Assembly (NCBI RefSeq): GCF_020662265.1 | Contig: NZ_VEWM01000075.1 | Span: 186,001 to 250,000, forward strand | Length of the DNA stretch: 64,000 bases | Origin: Psychrobacter sp. I-STPA6b | GTDB lineage: Bacteria; Pseudomonadota; Gammaproteobacteria; Pseudomonadales; Moraxellaceae | Direction: 5' to 3' | Shown here: piece after piece, positions 1-10,406 of the stretch | Layout of the letters: each line of letters opens with the position of its first letter | How positions within the stretch are numbered: position 1 is the first letter of the stretch | Made by a program: the position numbers and the translations under genes | Notes under the pieces: model-generated | What the model was told of the DNA's origin: nothing | The model's input: the letters and a program-made list of their open reading frames with translations, nothing else | Database searches by the model: none

Positions 1-2789
1 GTATCAAAACCCGCAGGCAAACCGAGCTAGTATGGATAGTGGGAAATAAACGCAAATTTAATGAAGTGGGGATTGTACCTGTTAATTGGACAACTAAGGA
101 ATTATTTATGGATATAGTATCAAATAAGACATCACATATCTTAGCAAATACAAATAAGCAACCTTTATATCAACATTTATTTGCAGTAGGTTACCTTGCC
201 TATCATTTAATTGAACATATGAATATTAATAGTAAATCTCTAAAACTATCAGCTTTTATAGCTGGAATATTACATGATATCGGGAAAGTCGATCCACTCT
301 TTCAAATATGGGTAAATAAAAAGATTAACAAAATACAAGATGAACCAGTGCCAGAAGATGGACAACATATCGATAAAACAGTTACTGGTATGACTAAGTT
401 TACCTTTGATAAGCATCCACGACACCATGAGTTATCTTGGTTGTTTGCTAGCTCTATGCTACGAGATAATAGTACCTTAAATAAATTACAACAATCACAA
501 ATTATGCATGGTATTTATTGGCATCATACTAAACCTTATCGAAAAAAAAACAATGAATACTTTAATAAAGCCAAAGGTATTTATAAGAAATTTACAGAGT
601 CTTTAGAGAAGACTACGAGCAATTTAAATAATGTTATTGTTGATATAAATAGTGTCATACAAGAAGTCATTAAGCTGGCAAAGCACTATAACAAAGCTGA
701 TATGATTCCCCCCCTGTTAAATGACTTTTCATTAACAACTGATGATTTACCTAAGTATAAAAACTATAGTGATATTAATGATCAAATGTCTGAATATATA
801 AGCGAAGTAAGAGAAAATGCTTTAAACAATCTAATTCGAACAGCTGTGATTAGTGCAGATAGGCTGGTTTCTCAATTAGATGCAGAAGACTTAGCAAGCT
901 ACTTGCAAGAAGCAACTTTACTAGATTTACTTGATTCAATTACATTAGAAGATAATGATTTAACTCAAAATATCCAAAATTGTATTAATGGATTTGATAA
1001 CAACAGTAGTGAAATAGAACGAACACAAGCACAAAAAGCAACGGCTGTTAAACTAGCTAACTTACAAAAAATAGCCAAAAGCAATGAATCTGACAATGTA
1101 GTAGTACTTCAAGGGCCTGCTGGTTGCGGTAAAACCAAAATTGTCTTGGAATGGGCATTAAATACACAAGCTAAAAAAATTATATGGGTATGTCCTAGAG
1201 TACAAGTTTGTTTAGGTATCATTAATGATTTGACCCAACCTGAATATCTTCCTCAAAGCCGAATTGAGATATTTACTGGTGAATATAAAAAAATATTAAC
1301 TCATGGATTAAGCTTAGAAGATACTCCAAATACAGAGATTGAAGATTATTTTAGTGGTGATATTGTCATCACTACAATTGATCAAGTTTTAAGTGCCATT
1401 ATTACTCATAATAAGGTAGACACACTAATACCCTTCATGCAATCCCATGTGATATTCGATGAATTTCATGAACTAATACTTATGCCTGCATTTAACTTAT
1501 TATTTGCTGAATTAATTAATGCAAAAAAAATGCAAGGTCATGTTGCTAATACTTTATTAGTTTCTGCAACACCAAACTATTACTTTACCAAGCAATTTTT
1601 AAAGATAAAAGCAGAAGACCATATAAGTATTGAAAGCTTCAACAACTCTGACTATCAAATAGAAATACAAACTTATGACAGTGAAAATGAACCAAATCCT
1701 TTAATCTCACATTGTCATACTGATGATATTTCTACTTTCATTATTACTAATACTGCTATTTCTTCTCAGCTTAGCTTTATTAAACATCATCAAAGTGAAA
1801 ATAGCATTTTACTTCATTCAAAATACAACAAGCGAGATAAATCTTATTGGTTTGATAAAGTATTTGATACTTTTAAAAGAAATGGAACTCAAGAATATAA
1901 TGTATTAAGAAGTGGTCCAATCGTTCAAGCCTCACTAAACATAAGTTGCGACCGAATGTATACCGAGCTGACCAATGCAGAAAACTGGCTTCAACGTTTA
2001 GGACGACTGGATCGCTTTGGTAAAAATGTCGACAGCAATATTTATACAACCGTGATGGCAAATAATGCAATTACAGGTAAGCAGACTAACCAAACTGCTA
2101 AATTCTTAAATAAATTATATTCTTGGTATAGCACAGTAGCATGGATAAATTTTTTACAAGAAAGGATTTTAGAACAACCCACATTCAAACTTAATGAGCT
2201 ATATTCTATTTATCGTGACTTTTATCAAGATCCAACCTGCCTTGCTAAAATTGAAGAGGATTTTTTAAGGTCTCTTAAGCAATCATCTACTGTAATTAAT
2301 AGTAAGATTTTAGACCCTATCTATATTCCATTTAAATCGCCGAAGAATACTGACACAGTCAAGACAGCTAAGACATCATTACGAGGTGACAGTCGATTTG
2401 TACAAATGGCAACCTGCTATATTGATACTAACCAGCAGGTCAACTTTTCCAATGATTACCTCTACGATGAACTCAACCCTACGGAAAATACTATCTTCAC
2501 CGAATCTGTGCTAAAAATTCAGGGGTATGGTGACAGCTCAAAGAATTTAGTCATCTTTATGCACGCTAAGCACCACAATATTAAAGAAGGCTATAAAAAG
2601 GCTTATAAAGATTTTGAGTTACTAAATGAAGCCCGTACCTCTACTAACCCAATTTATCTTAGCTATACTCCTATTGATCTTAAAAAGATTAATAGTGCAA
2701 CTCATCCTTACAGCATCTATTATGTATTTACTAATAAACAACCTGTAGGAAGCATGCGTTTGGATAAGTTAGTGGGGAGTAATAGATAA
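1..2789 (+). CDS. cas2-3: Cas2-Cas3 fusion nuclease-helicase, type I-F2, 5' end outside window
   Basis: This is the target-degrading subunit of a type I-F CRISPR system. The frame is open from the first bases of the window, so the GTG at 39 is not the true start and the Cas2 domain plus linker lie upstream. The stretch WIVGNKRKFN just before and after that GTG resembles the Cas2-Cas3 linker of type I-F proteins. Counting from the GTG, an HD nuclease motif (H79-D80) is followed by a Walker A motif GPAGCGKT near 359, a DEFH box near 474, SATPN, and the helicase motif QRLGRLDRFG near 652. A C-terminal domain follows. Cas3 is recruited by the crRNA-bound effector and shreds DNA; in type I-F the Cas2 part also joins Cas1. 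cas1 would be expected upstream but is not in view. The family call is firm. Confidence 0.93.
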   Translation, partial: IKTRRQTELVWIVGNKRKFNEVGIVPVNWTTKELFMDIVSNKTSHILANTNKQPLYQHLFAVGYLAYHLIEHMNINSKSLKLSAFIAGILHDIGKVDPLFQIWVNKKINKIQDEPVPEDGQHIDKTVTGMTKFTFDKHPRHHELSWLFASSMLRDNSTLNKLQQSQIMHGIYWHHTKPYRKKNNEYFNKAKGIYKKFTESLEKTTSNLNNVIVDINSVIQEVIKLAKHYNKADMIPPLLNDFSLTTDDLPKYKNYSDINDQMSEYISEVRENALNNLIRTAVISADRLVSQLDAEDLASYLQEATLLDLLDSITLEDNDLTQNIQNCINGFDNNSSEIERTQAQKATAVKLANLQKIAKSNESDNVVVLQGPAGCGKTKIVLEWALNTQAKKIIWVCPRVQVCLGIINDLTQPEYLPQSRIEIFTGEYKKILTHGLSLEDTPNTEIEDYFSGDIVITTIDQVLSAIITHNKVDTLIPFMQSHVIFDEFHELILMPAFNLLFAELINAKKMQGHVANTLLVSATPNYYFTKQFLKIKAEDHISIESFNNSDYQIEIQTYDSENEPNPLISHCHTDDISTFIITNTAISSQLSFIKHHQSENSILLHSKYNKRDKSYWFDKVFDTFKRNGTQEYNVLRSGPIVQASLNISCDRMYTELTNAENWLQRLGRLDRFGKNVDSNIYTTVMANNAITGKQTNQTAKFLNKLYSWYSTVAWINFLQERILEQPTFKLNELYSIYRDFYQDPTCLAKIEEDFLRSLKQSSTVINSKILDPIYIPFKSPKNTDTVKTAKTSLRGDSRFVQMATCYIDTNQQVNFSNDYLYDELNPTENTIFTESVLKIQGYGDSSKNLVIFMHAKHHNIKEGYKKAYKDFELLNEARTSTNPIYLSYTPIDLKKINSATHPYSIYYVFTNKQPVGSMRLDKLVGSNR

Positions 2790-2810
2790 ACCACCTATGT
2801 GGTGGAAAAA
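2783..2810 (-). repeat. Degenerate CRISPR repeat B overlapping the cas2-3 stop
   Basis: On the minus strand this matches the array repeat at 19 of 28 positions. The stem is CCACC/GGTGG around the unchanged loop ACATA. Two stem pairs are changed on both sides (6/20 and 9/17), so pairing is fully preserved. The TTTA after the stem is conserved but the GAAA end is lost. The last bases overlap the cas2-3 stop codon. The hairpin followed by TTTATCT could also act as a weak terminator. Confidence 0.75.
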
Positions 2811-2822
2811 AATGAGTACTAC

Positions 2823-2850
2823 TTTCAAAGCCACCTATGTGGTGAAAAAG
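2823..2850 (-). repeat. Degenerate CRISPR repeat A, solo, inverted relative to the array
   Basis: Read on the minus strand, this 28-mer matches the array repeat at 22 of 28 positions. Differences fall at repeat positions 4, 9, 17, 20, 21 and 24. Positions 9 and 17 change together, replacing a T-A pair with C-G, so the hairpin is kept. The loop ACATA and the 3' end GAAA are identical to the leader-proximal array repeats. Position 20 is G, the usual base at the Cas6f cleavage site. Confidence 0.85.
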
Positions 2851-2860
2851 CAATCATAAC

Positions 2861-2866
2861 ATTATA
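2861..2866 (-). promoter_or_regulatory. -10 element of the putative mini-crRNA promoter
   Basis: The minus strand reads TATAAT here, a perfect -10 hexamer. It would start transcription about 3-4 nt before degenerate repeat A. No good -35 is seen; the best-spaced hexamer is TATATT at complement 2884-2889. That places the upstream part of this promoter beside the protospacer-like site, so binding there could also feed back on the RNA itself. Confidence 0.5.
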
Positions 2867-2888
2867 AATATTAAATTCAACTCAATAT

Positions 2889-2901
2889 ATGAGTACTACG
2901 G
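2889..2901 (-). promoter_or_regulatory. Protospacer-like target of the mini-crRNA with CC PAM
   Basis: The minus strand reads CC (2901-2900) followed by GTAGTACTCAT (2899-2889). The 11 bases are identical to the first 11 bases after degenerate repeat A. The CC sits exactly where a type I-F PAM lies, 5' of the protospacer on the non-target strand. The site abuts the putative -35 box of the cas7fv promoter. The match ends at base 12 of the guide. Confidence 0.7.
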
Positions 2902-2930
2902 TTGAAATTCAACAAAAGCTAGCGTAGCAT
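2902..2930 (+). promoter_or_regulatory. Putative cas7fv-cas5fv-cas6f promoter
   Basis: TTGAAA at 2902-2907 and TAGCAT at 2925-2930 are separated by 17 bp, giving a predicted start about 54 nt before the cas7fv ATG. A small inverted repeat, GTTGAA/TTCAAC with one base between, overlaps the -35 (2901-2913). The protospacer-like site lies immediately upstream. Confidence 0.5.
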
Positions 2931-2990
2931 TCATAATCAAGTTGGTAAACAACTTAATTACTTAAAAAATAGTCACCAAAGGAGCAAAAA

Positions 2991-3953
2991 ATGAGCAAGA
3001 TAACTGGTATTAAAAGTGTTGATTTCAAAGTAACAGCCTGTGGTTATGGTGTGGTAAATTGGAATGGTCCAACATCACTTAGTAATGAAGGCAAAACGGT
3101 GGACAATCACACACTACCCAAATTAAGAGGTTTTACCAATCTAACTGGTAAAATTAAAGAAGAGACAGGCTATAAATATAAAAAAGAAGCAACTGATATA
3201 GATTTCAAAGAAACACCTTTATACATTAGTCAGAATTGTATTCGTCATCATTTGTTTAAAGCTCAAGCCTTTGATTTACACTATGCAGATAAAAATAATG
3301 TAGAACAAGTTCTTATTTCACTTACAGGATTAATTCGGGGTTATGTTATCCCTGCTAGCCAATATAAACGCACTAGTCCCCTACTTATTGAGGACTTTGT
3401 AGATCAATTAGGAAATGGTAACTTTGAACAATTCGGTCAAGCTGGTGAGCGTGATAGTTCATCTTTTTTTTCTAAGACAACTTTTGGGGATACTCAATAC
3501 AAAGCCTACGGATCTATCAATATTGAGCAACTACAATTTATCTCACTAGATAATAAATTTGATAGAGCATCAATGACGATTGAAGATACGCAAGGCGAAG
3601 AGCTAGCCCAAAAGATTACCGATTTTATTAAAACACTTGATCCCAGCAAAGAACCTAATGCTACTTTTCATGAAAATTATGTCCGCCAAGGCACAATACT
3701 TGAAATTGGTGAGGCTGGAATTTTACTAGATGATACAGCAATCGACATTCTAGTAAATACGACTATTCAGATGCTCCAAGACTTAGCTATTAAACAAGCT
3801 AAAGGCTATATGTATGTCGAAAGTATTGAAGTGGATTATAATGATAGCAATAAAATGATGCGTATCAAACGTTCACCTGAAGAAGCTAACCCCACTAAAG
3901 ATAATCAAAACTATGCGATCTATTTCAAAGCTAAAGATACTGATGCTATCTAG
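2991..3953 (+). CDS. cas7fv: Type I-F2 (I-Fv) Cas7fv crRNA-backbone protein
   Basis: Cas7fv forms the helical filament along the crRNA spacer in the minimal I-Fv effector, which has no Cas8f large subunit. This 320-residue protein begins [14 protein letters not shown] and has the glycine-rich, RRM-like character of Cas7 proteins. It is followed directly by a Cas5fv and a Cas6f homologue, the gene order of the Shewanella putrefaciens I-Fv locus. A strong ribosome site (AAAGGAG) lies 6 nt before the ATG. The 201-bp gap to cas2-3 holds the candidate mini-crRNA and a promoter, so the three effector genes probably form their own transcript. The assignment rests on sequence character and gene order. 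Confidence 0.85.
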
Positions 3954-3962
3954 GAGAACTGT

Positions 3963-4988
3963 ATGAGAATCACTATTGAATATGAATCATCATGGAGAAA
4001 CTCATTTTTAGATGGCTCTAACGATGAAGCCTTGCCTAAGAAAGGACGTAATTTTGTTGCATCAATGACAGAACTCAAAAAACCACATAACTATCATTCT
4101 AGAGAAGTCACTCAAAACACAGTAATGGGAATCTTAAATCGGCTCATTGGCGATCAGCGTAAACTTTACCAAGCAAGAAAAAAACTAGAAGATGATTCTT
4201 ATTACTTTGAAAATTTAGAGTCTAAAATCTCGTTTGAAGATAAACCGACCACTATTAATACTGAAATAGCATATATCCGCAATATTAAAGGTAGCACCGA
4301 CCAAAACTCATTTACAGGTATGCTAAAAGTCAATGATCCAATTTTCACCTCTAACTACTCTAAAGAGTTTTGGCACATTCTAGCTTTAGATATTGAGGAG
4401 CTTTGTGACTTTATTCTTGATAACAAATCGACTAAAAAATCTATCGAACTCAGTCCGTTTGGTGTTTTAAATCGATTAGAAGAGATAAAAAAACTAAAGC
4501 CAGTATTACCTGAAGGAAGAATAAAAGAGGCCTCCGATAAGCTTGCTAATATATTCGAAAAATATAATCCGTTGAATAAGAAAAAAGAACAGTTACTTTT
4601 ACCCATGTACTGCTCTGCTTTATACCTACAAATGCAAAGGCTAGAAGCGGATTATGATATGAGTCTTGCGAAAACTAAAATGGGCGGTATTAGTGGTATT
4701 TCTAATAATAGCTTTACCCCCAAAGACTTTTTAAACAAATATACTACTGGTGATAAAAAGCTCATCTATGGCAATCCATATATAAGAGAAGAGTTTGTTA
4801 AAGGTGAAGGGAAAATAAAACAAACTTTGACTAAAGCAAATGGCATATTAGAAATTAACTTAGATATAAATATAGATAAAGCCATTGAGCTTAAACAATT
4901 GATTGACTATGCAGGAGTATCCTCTTTTTACTTAGGTAAGAAAGGACTCGCATATGTTACTGATATAGATATCAGGGAGATGAAATGA
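3963..4988 (+). CDS. cas5fv: Type I-F2 (I-Fv) Cas5fv, crRNA 5'-end capping and PAM-sensing subunit
   Basis: In I-Fv complexes Cas5fv caps the 5' handle of the crRNA. An inserted alpha-helical domain takes over PAM recognition from the missing Cas8f. The protein has 341 residues, larger than a plain Cas5, as expected for that insertion; its middle part (about 140-230) is helix-rich and lysine-rich. The start has a good ribosome site (TAGGAGA) 9 bp after cas7fv ends. The stop overlaps the cas6f start by 4 bp, which suggests translational coupling. The assignment rests on order, size and N-terminal character. Confidence 0.83.
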   Translation: MRITIEYESSWRNSFLDGSNDEALPKKGRNFVASMTELKKPHNYHSREVTQNTVMGILNRLIGDQRKLYQARKKLEDDSYYFENLESKISFEDKPTTINTEIAYIRNIKGSTDQNSFTGMLKVNDPIFTSNYSKEFWHILALDIEELCDFILDNKSTKKSIELSPFGVLNRLEEIKKLKPVLPEGRIKEASDKLANIFEKYNPLNKKKEQLLLPMYCSALYLQMQRLEADYDMSLAKTKMGGISGISNNSFTPKDFLNKYTTGDKKLIYGNPYIREEFVKGEGKIKQTLTKANGILEINLDINIDKAIELKQLIDYAGVSSFYLGKKGLAYVTDIDIREMK

Positions 4989-5602
4989 CTCATTACCAAG
5001 AACTAACACTGATAGACTCTGCTGAAAAATCTCTATATGAAATTTGGAGTCACATTTATACTCAGCTACACATTGCCTTAGCAGATATAAAAAATAAGCA
5101 TGGCATCAAAACTATTGGTGTGAGCTTCCCTAATTATCGATATGAAGAAAAATGTAATAAGACTTTCGCTCTACTAGGTAATAAACTTCGAGTTTTTGCC
5201 CCTAGTCAAGCTGATTTAGAAAAGCTTGATTTAAACCGTTGGCTTTCTCGTCTTACTGACTATGTACATATCAAAAGTATTAAAGAAGTACCAAAAACGG
5301 CTGACCAGTATTTATTGGTCAGGCGTTATCGCTTTACACCACTGGACAAACGGGTGCAAAGCTTGGCAACACACCATAATGTCAGCTTTGATGACGCAAT
5401 GGCACAATATACCAGTCGAGAAAAACGAGCAGTAGAAAAGCATTATCCTTACATTAGCCTAAAAAGTGAAAGTAATGATAAACGCCCCTACCCTTTGCGT
5501 ATCTGGCAACAGTCTGCTGAAAAGCCACAGCAAGGTCAATTTAATGCTTATGGTATGAACAATATGACATCGACTGTCACAGTACCACATTGGCAAGACT
5601 GA
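4985..5602 (+). CDS. cas6f: Cas6f (Csy4) CRISPR RNA endoribonuclease
   Basis: Cas6f cuts the precursor crRNA at the base of each repeat hairpin and stays bound to the 3' hairpin. The catalytic histidine is at position 29 (QLHIAL), exactly as in Csy4, followed by IGVSFPNY. The C-terminal signature FNAYGMNNMTSTVTVPHW matches the Csy4 pattern of YG followed by a short gap and TVP-W. The 205-residue length is near the usual ~187. It overlaps cas5fv by 4 bp, and the array leader begins right after the stop. The array repeat here has an unusual A at position 20, so recognition may have co-adapted. Confidence 0.93.
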   Translation: MTHYQELTLIDSAEKSLYEIWSHIYTQLHIALADIKNKHGIKTIGVSFPNYRYEEKCNKTFALLGNKLRVFAPSQADLEKLDLNRWLSRLTDYVHIKSIKEVPKTADQYLLVRRYRFTPLDKRVQSLATHHNVSFDDAMAQYTSREKRAVEKHYPYISLKSESNDKRPYPLRIWQQSAEKPQQGQFNAYGMNNMTSTVTVPHWQD

Positions 5603-5784: not shown

Positions 5785-8700
5785 CTTATTCATCACATAG
5801 ATGATTTAGAAAGTTTAAATACGCCTCGATTAGCTGTTGTGGGTCTTATTCATCACATAGATGATTTAGAAACACTATCCTTTTCAGGCATGCCAAACTT
5901 GTCACTTATTCATCACATAGATGATTTAGAAAATTATAATGATAGTAAAACAAACTATTACCCACTTATTCATCACATAGATGATTTAGAAATAAGCAAT
6001 GGGTTGATGACTACGGAGCAGCAACTTATTCATCACATAGATGATTTAGAAATGTATTTGAAGCTGTCGGTAATGAATATAGAGCTTATTCATCACATAG
6101 ATGATTTAGAAATGTTAAATCATATATTTCTGCTTTTGTACCACCTTATTCATCACATAGATGATTTAGAAAATCGCCAAAACTCTTGCTTGCGGAGTCA
6201 AAAACTTATTCATCACATAGATGATTTAGAAAGAAATACAAGCATTGATTGCACGATTAAAAAACTTATTCATCACATAGATGATTTAGAAAAATGCAAG
6301 TTATTTTTGCTTAGATGATGCAATCTTATTCATCACATAGATGATTTAGAAAAAACCAACTTTAATATCATATATGGGCTGAATCTTATTCATCACATAG
6401 ATGATTTAGAAAAAAAAATCATATCTTTTAAAATATTGGCTTCACTTATTCATCACATAGATGATTTAGAAATCTCGGCTCTTTCCTGCCGTCTTTGTTC
6501 CAGTCTTATTCATCACATAGATGATTTAGAAACAACGGCAAAAAGCACTTTACACACATGCTGACTTATTCATCACATAGATGATTTAGAAATCACACAC
6601 CCTCGCACCCGACACTATTGAGCTCTTATTCATCACATAGATGATTTAGAAAGTTTATTATTGTCTGATTTATTATTTCGTGGCCTTATTCATCACATAG
6701 ATGATTTAGAAATTTGAATATGCAAGCATTGATTATTTCTGCTTCTTATTCATCACATAGATGATTTAGAAAACTTATGAGATATCACGGAGCAAAATGG
6801 AAGCCTTATTCATCACATAGATGATTTAGAAATTTAGAACCTGACCATCCTGACTATTATCCGCCTTATTCATCACATAGATGATTTAGAAATTTGTATG
6901 TTGCCGACTGCTTACCTGCAAATACTTATTCATCACATAGATGATTTAGAAATATAGTGGTATGGGGTAATGAATTTAATGAAACTTATTCATCACATAG
7001 ATGATTTAGAAATCCTTATGCCACTGCATTTTTAAACAGATAGCCTTATTCATCACATAGATGATTTAGAAAGTGCCATTTATGACTATCATCACAGTGT
7101 CATTCTTATTCATCACATAGATGATTTAGAAATCGATAAGCATAAGCAGGTGCGCTTGGGTGGCCTTATTCATCACATAGATGATTTAGAAATTTTGCGT
7201 AGTTATCAATGTCTGTTAGATGGTCTTATTCATCACATAGATGATTTAGAAACTTGATTTTCTCTAAGCTCTCACGCTCTTTTTTCTTATTCATCACATA
7301 GATGATTTAGAAATGATTTTCAACGAGAAAATAATAAGTGGACAACTTATTCATCACATAGATGATTTAGAAATTCTGGTAGTTTTAATTCGTCAGTCAT
7401 ATCAATCTTATTCATCACATAGATGATTTAGAAATATCATGCGGGTCATCAAGCGGTATCTCGACACTTATTCATCACATAGATGATTTAGAAATGGACA
7501 AACATATTTAACTTCTACAAGAGAACCTTATTCATCACATAGATGATTTAGAAATAGAAAAAGTCGGGCTTTACGCTTCAATAACTCTTATTCATCACAT
7601 AGATGATTTAGAAAACTTGCTATCTCTTTAAATGAGCCAAAACTACCTTATTCATCACATAGATGATTTAGAAAACATGCAATATTCATCATTTAATGCT
7701 GACTCTCTTATTCATCACATAGATGATTTAGAAATACATTGAGTCGTGAACAACAAGTCGAGCGATCTTATTCATCACATAGATGATTTAGAAACTAGCA
7801 AACTAAAAGGGAAACCAAGGCACGTACTTATTCATCACATAGATGATTTAGAAAAAAAAGCGGTCAATGGTACTATCAGTTCCCACCTTATTCATCACAT
7901 AGATGATTTAGAAAGTAGTATTGATATGCGATGCTATCCCATCTGTCTTATTCATCACATAGATGATTTAGAAATTGTACAATTGTGTTGGCAATGGCAT
8001 CAACCGCTTATTCATCACATAGATGATTTAAAAAAGTATCATTCCGTGAAGTTGATATTAAATTACCTTATTCATCACACAGATGATTTAGAAAAATAAC
8101 AGACTGGTCAGCACCAATTAAATCTGCTTATTCATCACACAGATGATTTAGAAATGCAAAGTAGATGAAAACCTGCTTAACTCATTCTTATTCATCACAC
8201 AGATGATTTAGAAAAGTGTGTCGTTATCGTATGTCGCATCGCTAACCTTATTCATCACACAGATGATTTAGAAAAACAACCGCTAGGGCGTTAGCGTTCC
8301 ATGCCCCTTATTCATCACACAGATGATTTAGAAATCAGCACAGAGGAATGCGAATGCCCCGTGGGGCTTATTCATCACACAGATGATTTAGAAATAAAGT
8401 GAAAAATATCAGTTGACACAAGGAAACTTATTCATCACACAGATGATTTAGAAACATACCCGAAAAGACATCTATCATTCAAGATACTTATTCATCACAC
8501 AGATGATTTAGAAAACTATGTCGCCCACGGATATGTTGGAGACAATCTTATTCATCACACAGATGATTTAGAAACAAGCCATAGCGTTTCAGCTGGGTGG
8601 AGTCTTCTTATTCATCACACAGATGATTTAGAAACTCATCGGATAGCATCGATCTAAATTGTTTATCTTATTCATCACACAGATGATTTAGAAATCAACG

Positions 8701-9345
8701 TCCTTCCCTTCCTCCCTCCTATCGCCCTTATTCATCACACAGATGATTTAGAAATAGCGTAATAGCACTTCAACAAAGCCAGCAGACTTATTCATCACAC
8801 AGATGATTTAGAAAGCCTATGATGACCTTTTGCCCTGTTTCTAGCTCTTATTCATCACACAGATGATTTAGAAATTATTCTTTTCAAGCCCTGCACCTTA
8901 TTCATCACACAGATGATTTAGAAAAATATCTGCAATGATTCCGTTAATCTCGCTATCTTATTCATCACACAGATGATTTAGAAAAATTATGGCGATACTG
9001 GTTTGACCCAATTTTAACTTATTCATCACACAGATGATTTAGAAATCGTATATACAAGGTATATACCCATAAGTATACTTATTCATCACACAGATGATTT
9101 AGAAATGATTCATCCATTTTTGATAGCGTTGTAAGACCTTATTCATCACACAGATGATTTAGAATTTTGGCTATGCTGTCATCATTCCAAGCACGACCTT
9201 ATTCATCACACAGATGATTTAGAAATGCCTGCTTGCTGACAAGCCACACAAAGATAGCTTATTCATCACACAGATGATTTAGAAATTTGTTGTCAGTACG
9301 CACAAGACGGCTAACAACTTATTCATCACACAGATGATTTAGAAA
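5785..9345 (+). CRISPR. Type I-F CRISPR array, 60 repeats, 59 spacers
   Basis: The 28-bp repeat has a 5-bp stem TCATC/GATGA around a 5-base loop and ends TTTAGAAA. Spacers are nearly all 32 nt; three are 33 nt (from 7253, 7374 and 8985) and one is 22 nt (8875-8896). The first 38 repeats (starts 5785 to 8007) have loop ACATA. The last 22 (starts 8067 to 9318) have ACACA. Repeat 38 (8007) also has AAAA instead of GAAA at its end, and repeat 57 (9138) ends GAAT. The leader lies at the cas6f end, so the ACACA half is the older one. I found no spacer matching the window by eye. Confidence 0.99.
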
Positions 9346-9369
9346 TATTCATTAAAACATTAGCTACTA

Positions 9370-9438
9370 CTGACTAAGTCACCGTTTGTTAGAAGCAATA
9401 TCTCAATTTTTCCTATCAACATAAATATTCAACAAACC
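9370..9438 (-). mobile_element. Decayed end of the GGGTCTG MITE-like element
   Basis: Read on the minus strand this matches one end of the elements at 20470 and 34454: GGTTTGTTGAATATT, then TAGGAAAAATTGAGATA and GTGACTTAGTCA. Only this end is left and it carries many changes. It lies 25 bp beyond the last CRISPR repeat. Confidence 0.6.
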
Positions 9439-9553
9439 AATATATAAACCTTAACAATTATTTACTTTTATAACCACACAATAAGCCAACTATCATGTAT
9501 AATTCTATCCCCATCTCTTAGGGGCTTATAATCATTACCCACCTATTAATCTA

Positions 9554-9579
9554 CTGACTTAAATATATAGTTAAGTCAG
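9554..9579. promoter_or_regulatory. 9-bp inverted repeat before the ankyrin lipoprotein gene
   Basis: CTGACTTAA (9554-9562) pairs with TTAAGTCAG (9571-9579) over an 8-base loop, followed by TTTTA, 24 bp before the ATG. It could be an operator, a weak terminator or an mRNA 5' hairpin. The rest of 9346-9602 holds only the MITE relic and AT-rich sequence. Confidence 0.5.
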
Positions 9580-9602
9580 TTTTACATATTTAAGGTAGTT
9601 TT

Positions 9603-10406
9603 ATGAAAAAGATTTTTGGTAACGCTTTATCTACTGCAATGATAGCAATATTGATAGCAGGCTGTTCAAACATCAATACAGCATCAAATAACCAAGTAAA
9701 TGCTCAATCAGATAACCATGCAACAATAGCCACCGATGCACCCACACCTAAAACACAGTTCCGTTTTAGCGATGCTGAAAACTTCGATATTGCAAACCCA
9801 AATAGACTATCCCATCGTATATTTTATAACAAACCTTCTACAGGTGCGGATGCTGCATGGTTTGATGCTGTCAAACGTGGCGACTTAGATACTGTAAAAT
9901 ATATGGTAGAAAATGGACAAGATATAGAAGCCAAAGATACTGGTAGCCTAGATCAAACAGCCTTAGGATGGGCGGCATTTATTGGTTATGAAGATATGGT
10001 TGATTACTTAATCGCTCAAGGGGCAGATTTACACGCAACAGACAAAGGTGATGTTTATAATGTGATGAAGTCGGCAGTATTAGGGAAAAATACTGATATT
10101 GTCAAAAAAGTACATCAACTACTAAATGCTGAACAACCCGTTGACTTAAATGACCAAACTGTAGAAAACGATGGTGAAACATTAATCATGGTCGCTGCCA
10201 GTAACAATCGTCTAGAAACTGTGAAATACCTTTTAGAGCAAGGTGCTGATCCTAACTTAGTAGCAACCACACAAAATCAAAACCTAGGCTCTTACAATCA
10301 AAGCGCGTACTCTTATGCTTGCAGCCGTAATCTTGAAGAGATGCAACAGCTTCTAGCTGAAAATGGTGCTATCAATCATCGTACTGGTGCCGCAAGCTGT
10401 GAATAA
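9603..10406 (+). CDS. Ankyrin-repeat lipoprotein
   Basis: This is a 267-residue exported protein. Its N-terminus MKKIFGNALSTAM with the lipobox IAGC predicts lipid attachment at Cys21. After a low-complexity Asn/Thr linker, ankyrin repeats run from about residue 80 to the end (for example WFDAVKRGDLDTVKYMVENG, then TALGWAAFIGYEDMV and DYLIAQGADLHATD). These repeats bind proteins. The partner is unknown, so no specific role can be given. It sits between the CRISPR array and the trp genes and has its own terminator. Confidence 0.85.
   Translation: MKKIFGNALSTAMIAILIAGCSNINTASNNQVNAQSDNHATIATDAPTPKTQFRFSDAENFDIANPNRLSHRIFYNKPSTGADAAWFDAVKRGDLDTVKYMVENGQDIEAKDTGSLDQTALGWAAFIGYEDMVDYLIAQGADLHATDKGDVYNVMKSAVLGKNTDIVKKVHQLLNAEQPVDLNDQTVENDGETLIMVAASNNRLETVKYLLEQGADPNLVATTQNQNLGSYNQSAYSYACSRNLEEMQQLLAENGAINHRTGAASCE

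Follow-up and report, generated by a model that had tools for sequence, protein, structure and literature searches.

The type I-F2 (I-Fv) locus of clustered regularly interspaced short palindromic repeats (CRISPR) studied here occupies the first 9.3 kb of a 64,000-nucleotide stretch of the Psychrobacter sp. I-STPA6b genome (contig NZ_VEWM01000075.1, positions 186,001 to 250,000), the full length of which we call the window, and carries a mini-CRISPR on the minus strand of the 201-bp gap ahead of cas7fv, between cas2-3 and cas7fv. We found cas1f, cas2-3, cas7fv, cas5fv and cas6f, cas8 not being among them, which is the gene content of type I-F2. All window genes of the locus are encoded on the plus strand: cas2-3 (3..2789, with its stop codon ending at 2789) is clipped by the left end of the window and is complete in the genome, where it lies behind cas1f; cas7fv (2991..3953; NF040577, 468 bits, cut-off 200) is the first gene of the unit presumed to be repressed; cas5fv (3963..4988), for which an NCBIfam search returned no match, shares 55% identity over 338 aligned columns with the annotated cas5fv of an Acinetobacter plasmid; and cas6f/csy4 (4985..5602; TIGR02563, 150 bits, cut-off 36) presumably encodes the processing nuclease. 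The CRISPR array follows at 5785..9345 (plus strand) with the 28-nt repeat CTTATTCATCACATAGATGATTTAGAAA, present in 60 copies at a threshold of at least 22/28 identical positions. The stem of this repeat is A+T-rich (TCATC/GATGA), which is unusual compared to the CTGCC/GGCAG stems in most arrays compared.

The mini-CRISPR consists of two degenerate repeats enclosing a short guide, all on the minus strand. Pseudo-repeat A (psi-R1, 2823..2850; CTTTTTCACCACATAGGTGGCTTTGAAA) is identical to the array repeat at 22/28 positions and shows double-sided stem changes; the 12-nt guide GTAGTACTCATT (2811..2822) is identical in its first 11 nt to a target located further upstream on the same strand; and pseudo-repeat B (psi-R2, 2783..2810) is identical to the array repeat at 19/28 positions. 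This arrangement had been proposed in an earlier sequence-only reading of the same DNA and was recovered at the same positions, with the correction that the element does not lie entirely between cas2-3 and cas7fv, repeat B running into the last 7 bases of cas2-3. Once the array copies are excluded, repeat A is the top 28-mer match in the window, and repeat B, with its 19 identities, is tied with one unrelated site. Compared to the array repeat, both strands of the stems of A and B are altered jointly and the ACATA loop is retained, confirming the paired changes described earlier. The element thereby shows one defining feature of the CRISPR-Cas-regulating RNAs (CreRs), i.e. repeat-like elements around a spacer close to cas genes. 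An Rfam search of 2600-3100 gave no match up to E = 1. Furthermore, the repeat-B hairpin is followed by TTTATCTATT (2790-2805, minus strand), resembling an intrinsic terminator (2 such sites found versus 0.2 expected), and hairpin and tail might additionally terminate the small RNA.

The target protospacer of 11 nt lies at 2889..2899 (minus strand), is the same as guide positions 1-11 and is flanked directly at its 5' side by CC at 2900..2901 (GG on the plus strand), the protospacer-adjacent motif (PAM). As claimed before, the 11-mer occurs twice only in the 64-kb window, at 2812-2822 and at 2889-2899 beside the CC. In the 3.2-Mb genome the combination of CC and 10/10 guide bases, leaving position 6 free, has a single exact site, which is this target, and two further places with one mismatch. 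The PAM of I-F2 systems is reported to be 5'-CC (PMC11442125), and the I-Fv CRISPR-associated complex for antiviral defence (Cascade) is described as binding the PAM GG, read on the target strand, whereas TT, which is found at the repeat end in the array, is hardly bound (PMC7266957). Because the DNA encoding the guide is preceded by repeat bases and not by CC, the mini-CRISPR should not target itself. The PAM is followed directly by a predicted cas7fv promoter (2902..2930, plus strand) composed of TTGAAA (2902-2907), a 17-bp spacer and TAGCAT (2925-2930), assigned by consensus match. The presumed -35 element sits inside a short palindrome, TTGAAATTCAA (2902-2912), of which AAATTCAAC recurs at 2873; this palindrome may serve as a protein operator.

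To compare this region between relatives we collected I-F2 loci from named genomes (the best 80 of 124 relatives), plasmids (4 records), one viral contig and further genome sets, comprising the genus (3/105), the family (23/348), the order (13/390), the class (4/369), the order of a methanotroph locus (41/311), one more family (2/37) and a small order (1/3); these sets overlap and most contain the window's own genome. Together with the window, the 203 fetched loci were reduced by six known copies dropped by name and 62 duplicates to 136 loci that are non-identical around the cas7fv start, some of them being parts of a single gene (L113/L121/L115) or closely related. Outside arrays we scanned for hairpins of 5 bp with a 5-nt loop followed by an I-F-like 8-nt handle, the next 11 nt of which recur within 300 nt at 9/11 or better, with up to two mismatches allowed anywhere, and noted which two bases precede the second copy on its 5' side. 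The scan was not blind, as the handle list contained variants from the window and from L096.

Matches of at least 9/11 numbered 104 in the 136 loci, 15 of them carrying CC. In 13 of these 15 (the window, L045, L046, L052, L088, L095, L096, L101, L105, L132, L137, L168 and L177) the element is found ahead of cas7fv on the minus strand, and guide and target agree throughout or differ at position 6 alone; the remaining two, in L037 and L136, are located elsewhere, have two mismatches each (3,4 and 5,9) and were dismissed as chance. A control on reversed sequences yielded 97 matches, four with CC and none of these four with fewer than two mismatches, and matches lacking CC were at background level (89 real versus 93 reversed). 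Among 553 repeat-like candidates in the 136 loci, 13 had CC and 10/10 matches with position 6 free, compared to a mean of 0.05 and a maximum of 1 in 100 first-order-Markov resamplings of the candidate flanks. Relaxing the repeat definition and scanning anywhere in the I-F2 loci, e.g. before cas1, returned 16 such matches among 20,819 candidates versus 2 among 20,615 in reversed sequence; apart from the same 13, just three scattered matches were found, and further mini-CRISPRs elsewhere in the loci were therefore not accepted, the cas1 side being partly covered, with 64/136 loci extending at least 4.5 kb upstream of cas7fv.

The 13 loci, having been chosen as CC matches with a mismatch at most at position 6, match in 130/130 cells at positions 1-5 and 7-11, in 6/13 at position 6 and in 3/13 at position 12. 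As their nine distinct guides fall into five families, the match does not go back to a single inherited sequence; the ACTAYNTTCTW family is common to seven of the 13. Guide and target change in concert, at positions 1 and 10 between the window and L095, at position 11 between L046 and L088 and at position 5 between L045 and L046. Two length classes can be distinguished: in the eight loci with guides of 12-14 nt, pairing ends at position 11 with 10/40 matching cells at positions 13-17, and in the five with guides of 17-20 nt it extends to position 17 with 24/25 matching cells, position 12 being mismatched in three. Since every sixth base is flipped out of the type I duplex of CRISPR RNA (crRNA) and DNA and counts little (PMC7305327), this is the pairing signature expected of guides inside a type I Cascade. 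Conservation of the guide-target pair in related loci had been put forward as a decisive check by the sequence-only reading, and the pair is kept in 13 of the 136 I-F2 loci while changing in concert, a supporting feature standing outside the published CreR definition. The CreR-like interpretation of the mini-CRISPR is thus supported by comparative sequence data.

These results bear on two explanations in which the match has no regulatory meaning. A functionless remnant of an array spacer in decay, or a direct repeat that arose by chance close to a promoter, would agree with the degenerate repeats and with the absence of the element from 123 of the 136 loci, whereas the conservation test contradicts it, guide and target co-varying and 13 CC matches standing against 0.05 expected, as do the double-sided stem-pair changes; we regard this explanation as highly improbable. 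Prophage-encoded RNAs with a solitary repeat, so-called RNA anti-CRISPRs (Racrs), have been reported to inhibit I-F complexes (PMC11656645), suggesting that the small RNA could be a dominant-negative repeat RNA soaking up Cas6f or Cas7fv with an incidental guide match. For such an RNA there would be no need for the guide to co-vary, in 13 loci, with a site ahead of cas7fv that is flanked by CC, and the element described here sits within the cas locus, making a Racr-like role very hard to credit. Searches of viral contigs with three exact patterns found no phage-borne copy, no cas7fv was found in the phage collection, and similarity to 2700-3100 among plasmids, four of whose records carry I-F2 loci, is confined to the inside of cas7fv.

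The stems themselves vary under maintained pairing. When 12 distinct repeat-A sequences from the 13 loci are compared together with two array repeats, each of the 5 stem pairs is altered on both sides, a count reached by 6/500 shuffles; the pairing seen in all 70 stem cells is partly selected, as the scan required five pairs, and the number of pair types, one of five measures, was not above its shuffles. The element is distributed according to the space ahead of cas7fv, measured up to the closest frame of 100 or more codons that lies upstream on the same strand, whichever gene this may be: it is present in 12/17 loci whose gap reaches 180 nt, plus L052 with an undefined gap, and in 0/116 loci with a gap below 180 nt, the two remaining loci, likewise of undefined gap, being gene fragments. 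L190, L070, L077 and L193 have a gap of at least 180 nt without the element. On a Cas7fv tree of 127 rows, built by a quick method excluding proteins below 290 aa, its presence needs at least 11 changes (gain, loss or exchange), 7 of them forced by well-supported branches, and 37/500 shuffles are as low as 11.

Some neighbourhoods deserve mention in their own right. In L115 a decayed-looking mini-CRISPR-like element (-310 to -60), with a guide match off by one and AC instead of CC, lies beside 14 copies of TTTTAGTTG and was not counted; in this genome cas7fv is split between two contig ends (L113, L115). L092 (G100, same genus) likewise has a divided cas7fv, whose two parts (contig positions 958111-958362 and 959209-959922) are separated by about 850 bp, presumably because of an insertion. 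Between cas3 and the mini-CRISPR/cas7fv unit, L088 harbours a PIN-domain (VapC-like; Pfam match) gene with a small upstream open reading frame (ORF) (9121-9752), a similar pair is present in L046 (5606-6237), and L168 and L041 show, by eye, the same ending before cas7fv. At -38 of cas7fv, L046, L088 and L168 share a 13-codon ORF (MNLNLTVKIGKQL or MNSNLTIKIGKQL) whose stop codon overlaps the cas7fv ATG, making translational coupling possible.

With regard to transcription of the small RNA, a promoter is predicted on the minus strand at 2853..2880, consisting of TTGAAT (2880-2875), 16 nt and TATGAT (2858-2853) with an extended -10 TG. The sequence-only reading had placed the start at a perfect TATAAT just before repeat A; this hexamer exists, at 2866-2861, and is retained as the alternative -10, whereas TATGAT is the one with the distance to repeat A seen in other loci. 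A TA...T hexamer matching TATAAT at 4-6/6 positions lies 1-3 nt ahead of repeat A in 13/13 loci, with a mean score of 5.1 for the hexamer abutting repeat A versus 3.3 at random places in those gaps. On the side of the target, looking 10-32 bp past the PAM, a -10-like hexamer is located 17-24 bp from the PAM in 13/13 loci; in the window, CATAAT at 30 bp ranked above TAGCAT at 23 bp. Limited, PAM-flanked complementarity to a cas promoter, a further defining CreR feature, is present, with the promoter itself predicted from consensus matches. In 11/13 loci the target lies 79-117 nt ahead of the cas7fv start.

The exceptions are L101 and L105, in which target and predicted promoter are found about 230-240 nt upstream of cas7fv and are followed by the mini-CRISPR and then by cas7fv. 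The targeted transcript would traverse the mini-CRISPR in antisense there and could be a toxin unit like that of the toxin-antitoxin module CreTA. According to such an explanation, creA would be the mini-CRISPR, its guide acting as antitoxin, and creT a toxic small RNA or mini-ORF expressed ahead of cas7fv from the targeted promoter, so that the cell could not do without its CRISPR complex. The I-F1 creTA of Acinetobacter is reported to occupy the gap between cas3 and csy1; it has the divergent layout seen here, its PAM is CC, its guide is 20 nt long and the sixth base stays unpaired (PMC10097628). A creA-like mini-CRISPR with a CC-flanked partial target is present here as well, L101 and L105 offer room for a creT-like RNA, and stable hairpins are predicted in some leaders. 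However, a creT mini-ORF with a Shine-Dalgarno sequence downstream of the target was not found among the ATG/GTG frames of the 13 loci: considering these two start codons, the window and L052 contain none between target and cas7fv, the frames in the other 11 loci include none common across guide families, and a Shine-Dalgarno score of at least 4/6 is reached by just two GTG frames (L088, L105). The short distance from most targets to cas7fv argues in the same direction. Therefore, lacking an ATG/GTG mini-ORF between target and cas7fv, the window element is filed with the CreRs; we consider CreTA an unlikely explanation overall, and the targeted promoter may nevertheless give rise to a CreT-like product, especially in L101 and L105. 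Both functions might also be combined, the targeted promoter driving cas7fv with a toxic or sensing leader, so that the complex would be costly to lose and cas expression would be adjusted at the same time. One logic is common to I-F1 CreTA and CreR (PMC10097628; PMC12737573) and stable leader folds are predicted, e.g. in L096 and L132, whereas no leader sequence or mini-ORF is, judged by eye, common to the five guide families; such a combination seems to us distinctly improbable.

Taken together, the data make it very probable that the mini-CRISPR encodes a CreR-type autorepressor RNA of type I-F2 which likely represses the cas7fv operon. We infer the transcription and processing of the small RNA and the repression exerted by it from the sequence features described. 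According to this model, transcription from the -10 box abutting repeat A would begin inside this repeat, just before its hairpin, and Cas6f would cut after both hairpins, resulting in a crRNA-like RNA of about 40 nt starting CUUUGAAA-GUAGUACUCAU, to which repeat A would contribute the 5' handle CUUUGAAA and repeat B the 3' hairpin. The 12-nt guide would lead the Cas7fv-Cas5fv-Cas6f complex to the CC-flanked 11-nt site beside the predicted cas7fv -35 element, forming two 5-bp segments (1-5 and 7-11) around a flipped-out base 6, and the short R-loop would bind DNA without triggering Cas2-3, excluding RNA polymerase from the -35 region. With ordinary crRNAs expected to compete for this complex, the loop would allow cas expression to go up at high crRNA levels, and likewise if the complex is inhibited; such derepression by competing crRNAs or by inhibition has been reported for CreRs of other subtypes. 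Limited pairing without Cas3 action fits the biochemistry of I-F1 systems, in which short R-loops are reported not to trigger Cas2/3 and Cascade assembles on spacers down to 14 nt (PMC7296934), and the I-F2 Cascade has been used for promoter repression (PMC11442125).

Several points weigh against an autorepressor. The TTGAAA-17-TAGCAT ahead of cas7fv named by the sequence-only reading is present, but such matches are not rare, with 4 promoter-like sites in 401 bp of the window versus 1.9 expected, and an accompanying -35 of at least 4/6 is seen in 5/13 loci (window, L045, L095, L096, L132) and of 2-3/6 in the other eight. Regarding the small-RNA promoter, another hexamer equals or exceeds the abutting one in several loci, the window's TATAAT lying 10 nt off. 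The many I-F2 loci lacking the element count here too, and close relatives at 84-87% identity, known as proteins, lie outside the DNA comparison. Any change at nucleotides 13-17 of the I-F1 CreA is reported to abolish repression (PMC10097628); as these positions are unpaired in the short-guide class, 11-nt pairing might be insufficient. The 12-nt guide is also shorter than the 14-nt minimum spacer named for I-F1 (PMC7296934), and in the E. coli I-E system off-target Cascade binding is described as having no effect on local expression (PMC5904413).

Going beyond the single locus, we lean slightly towards a wider proposal in which I-F2 systems have repeatedly acquired a dedicated short-guide repressor Cascade. 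Its guide would span two six-base Cas7 modules when 12-14 nt long and three when 17-20 nt long, and would pair in blocks of 5 bp that leave each sixth base free; too short to recruit Cas2-3, the complex would act purely as self-repressor and as sensor of crRNA supply and anti-CRISPRs. If true, RNA-guided cas autoregulation extends to the smallest of the type I systems, devoid of Cas8 and in development as tools; the native 12-nt guide provides a design that should bind without cutting, evolution has recorded the six-base periodicity of the type I R-loop in the mismatch pattern, and the sensing of crRNA supply or anti-CRISPRs by I-F2 systems becomes directly testable by a reporter.

Comparable elements are known from other systems. 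Shmakov et al. 2023 reportedly described regulatory mini-arrays of type I systems, made up of free-standing repeats whose spacer shows a partial match to cas promoters, one I-F1 case having been tested. CreRs are named for I-B, I-E and V-A in one text (PMC13131331) and attributed to type I and V-A at large in another (PMC12737573), and the candidate element described here would belong to I-F2, a subtype named in none of the CreR texts found. A literature search returned no such element in I-F2 among the titles and abstracts of the matches listed, and such an element may already have been published. With the CreRs it shares a crRNA-like RNA, partial complementarity to a cas promoter and the logic of autorepression; it differs in its I-F2 effector without large subunit, in guides of 12-14 or 17-20 nt with 5-nt pairing blocks, and in its function being predicted. 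The scaRNA (small CRISPR-associated RNA) of Francisella Cas9, an RNA with a degenerate repeat and short complementarity, likewise redirects a Cas effector to repress transcription, but uses a class 2 effector and regulates a lipoprotein operon and not its own cas genes (PMC9458426). In layout the element resembles the I-F1 CreTA of Acinetobacter, including the place between cas3 and the first effector gene, the divergent guide RNA with two degenerate repeats, the CC PAM, the unpaired sixth base and a 20-nt guide as in some I-F2 loci. In contrast to CreTA, the window and L052 have no ATG/GTG mini-ORF, the short-guide class pairs over 11 nt only, and the predicted target lies at or just upstream of the -35 element and not downstream of the start site (PMC10097628).

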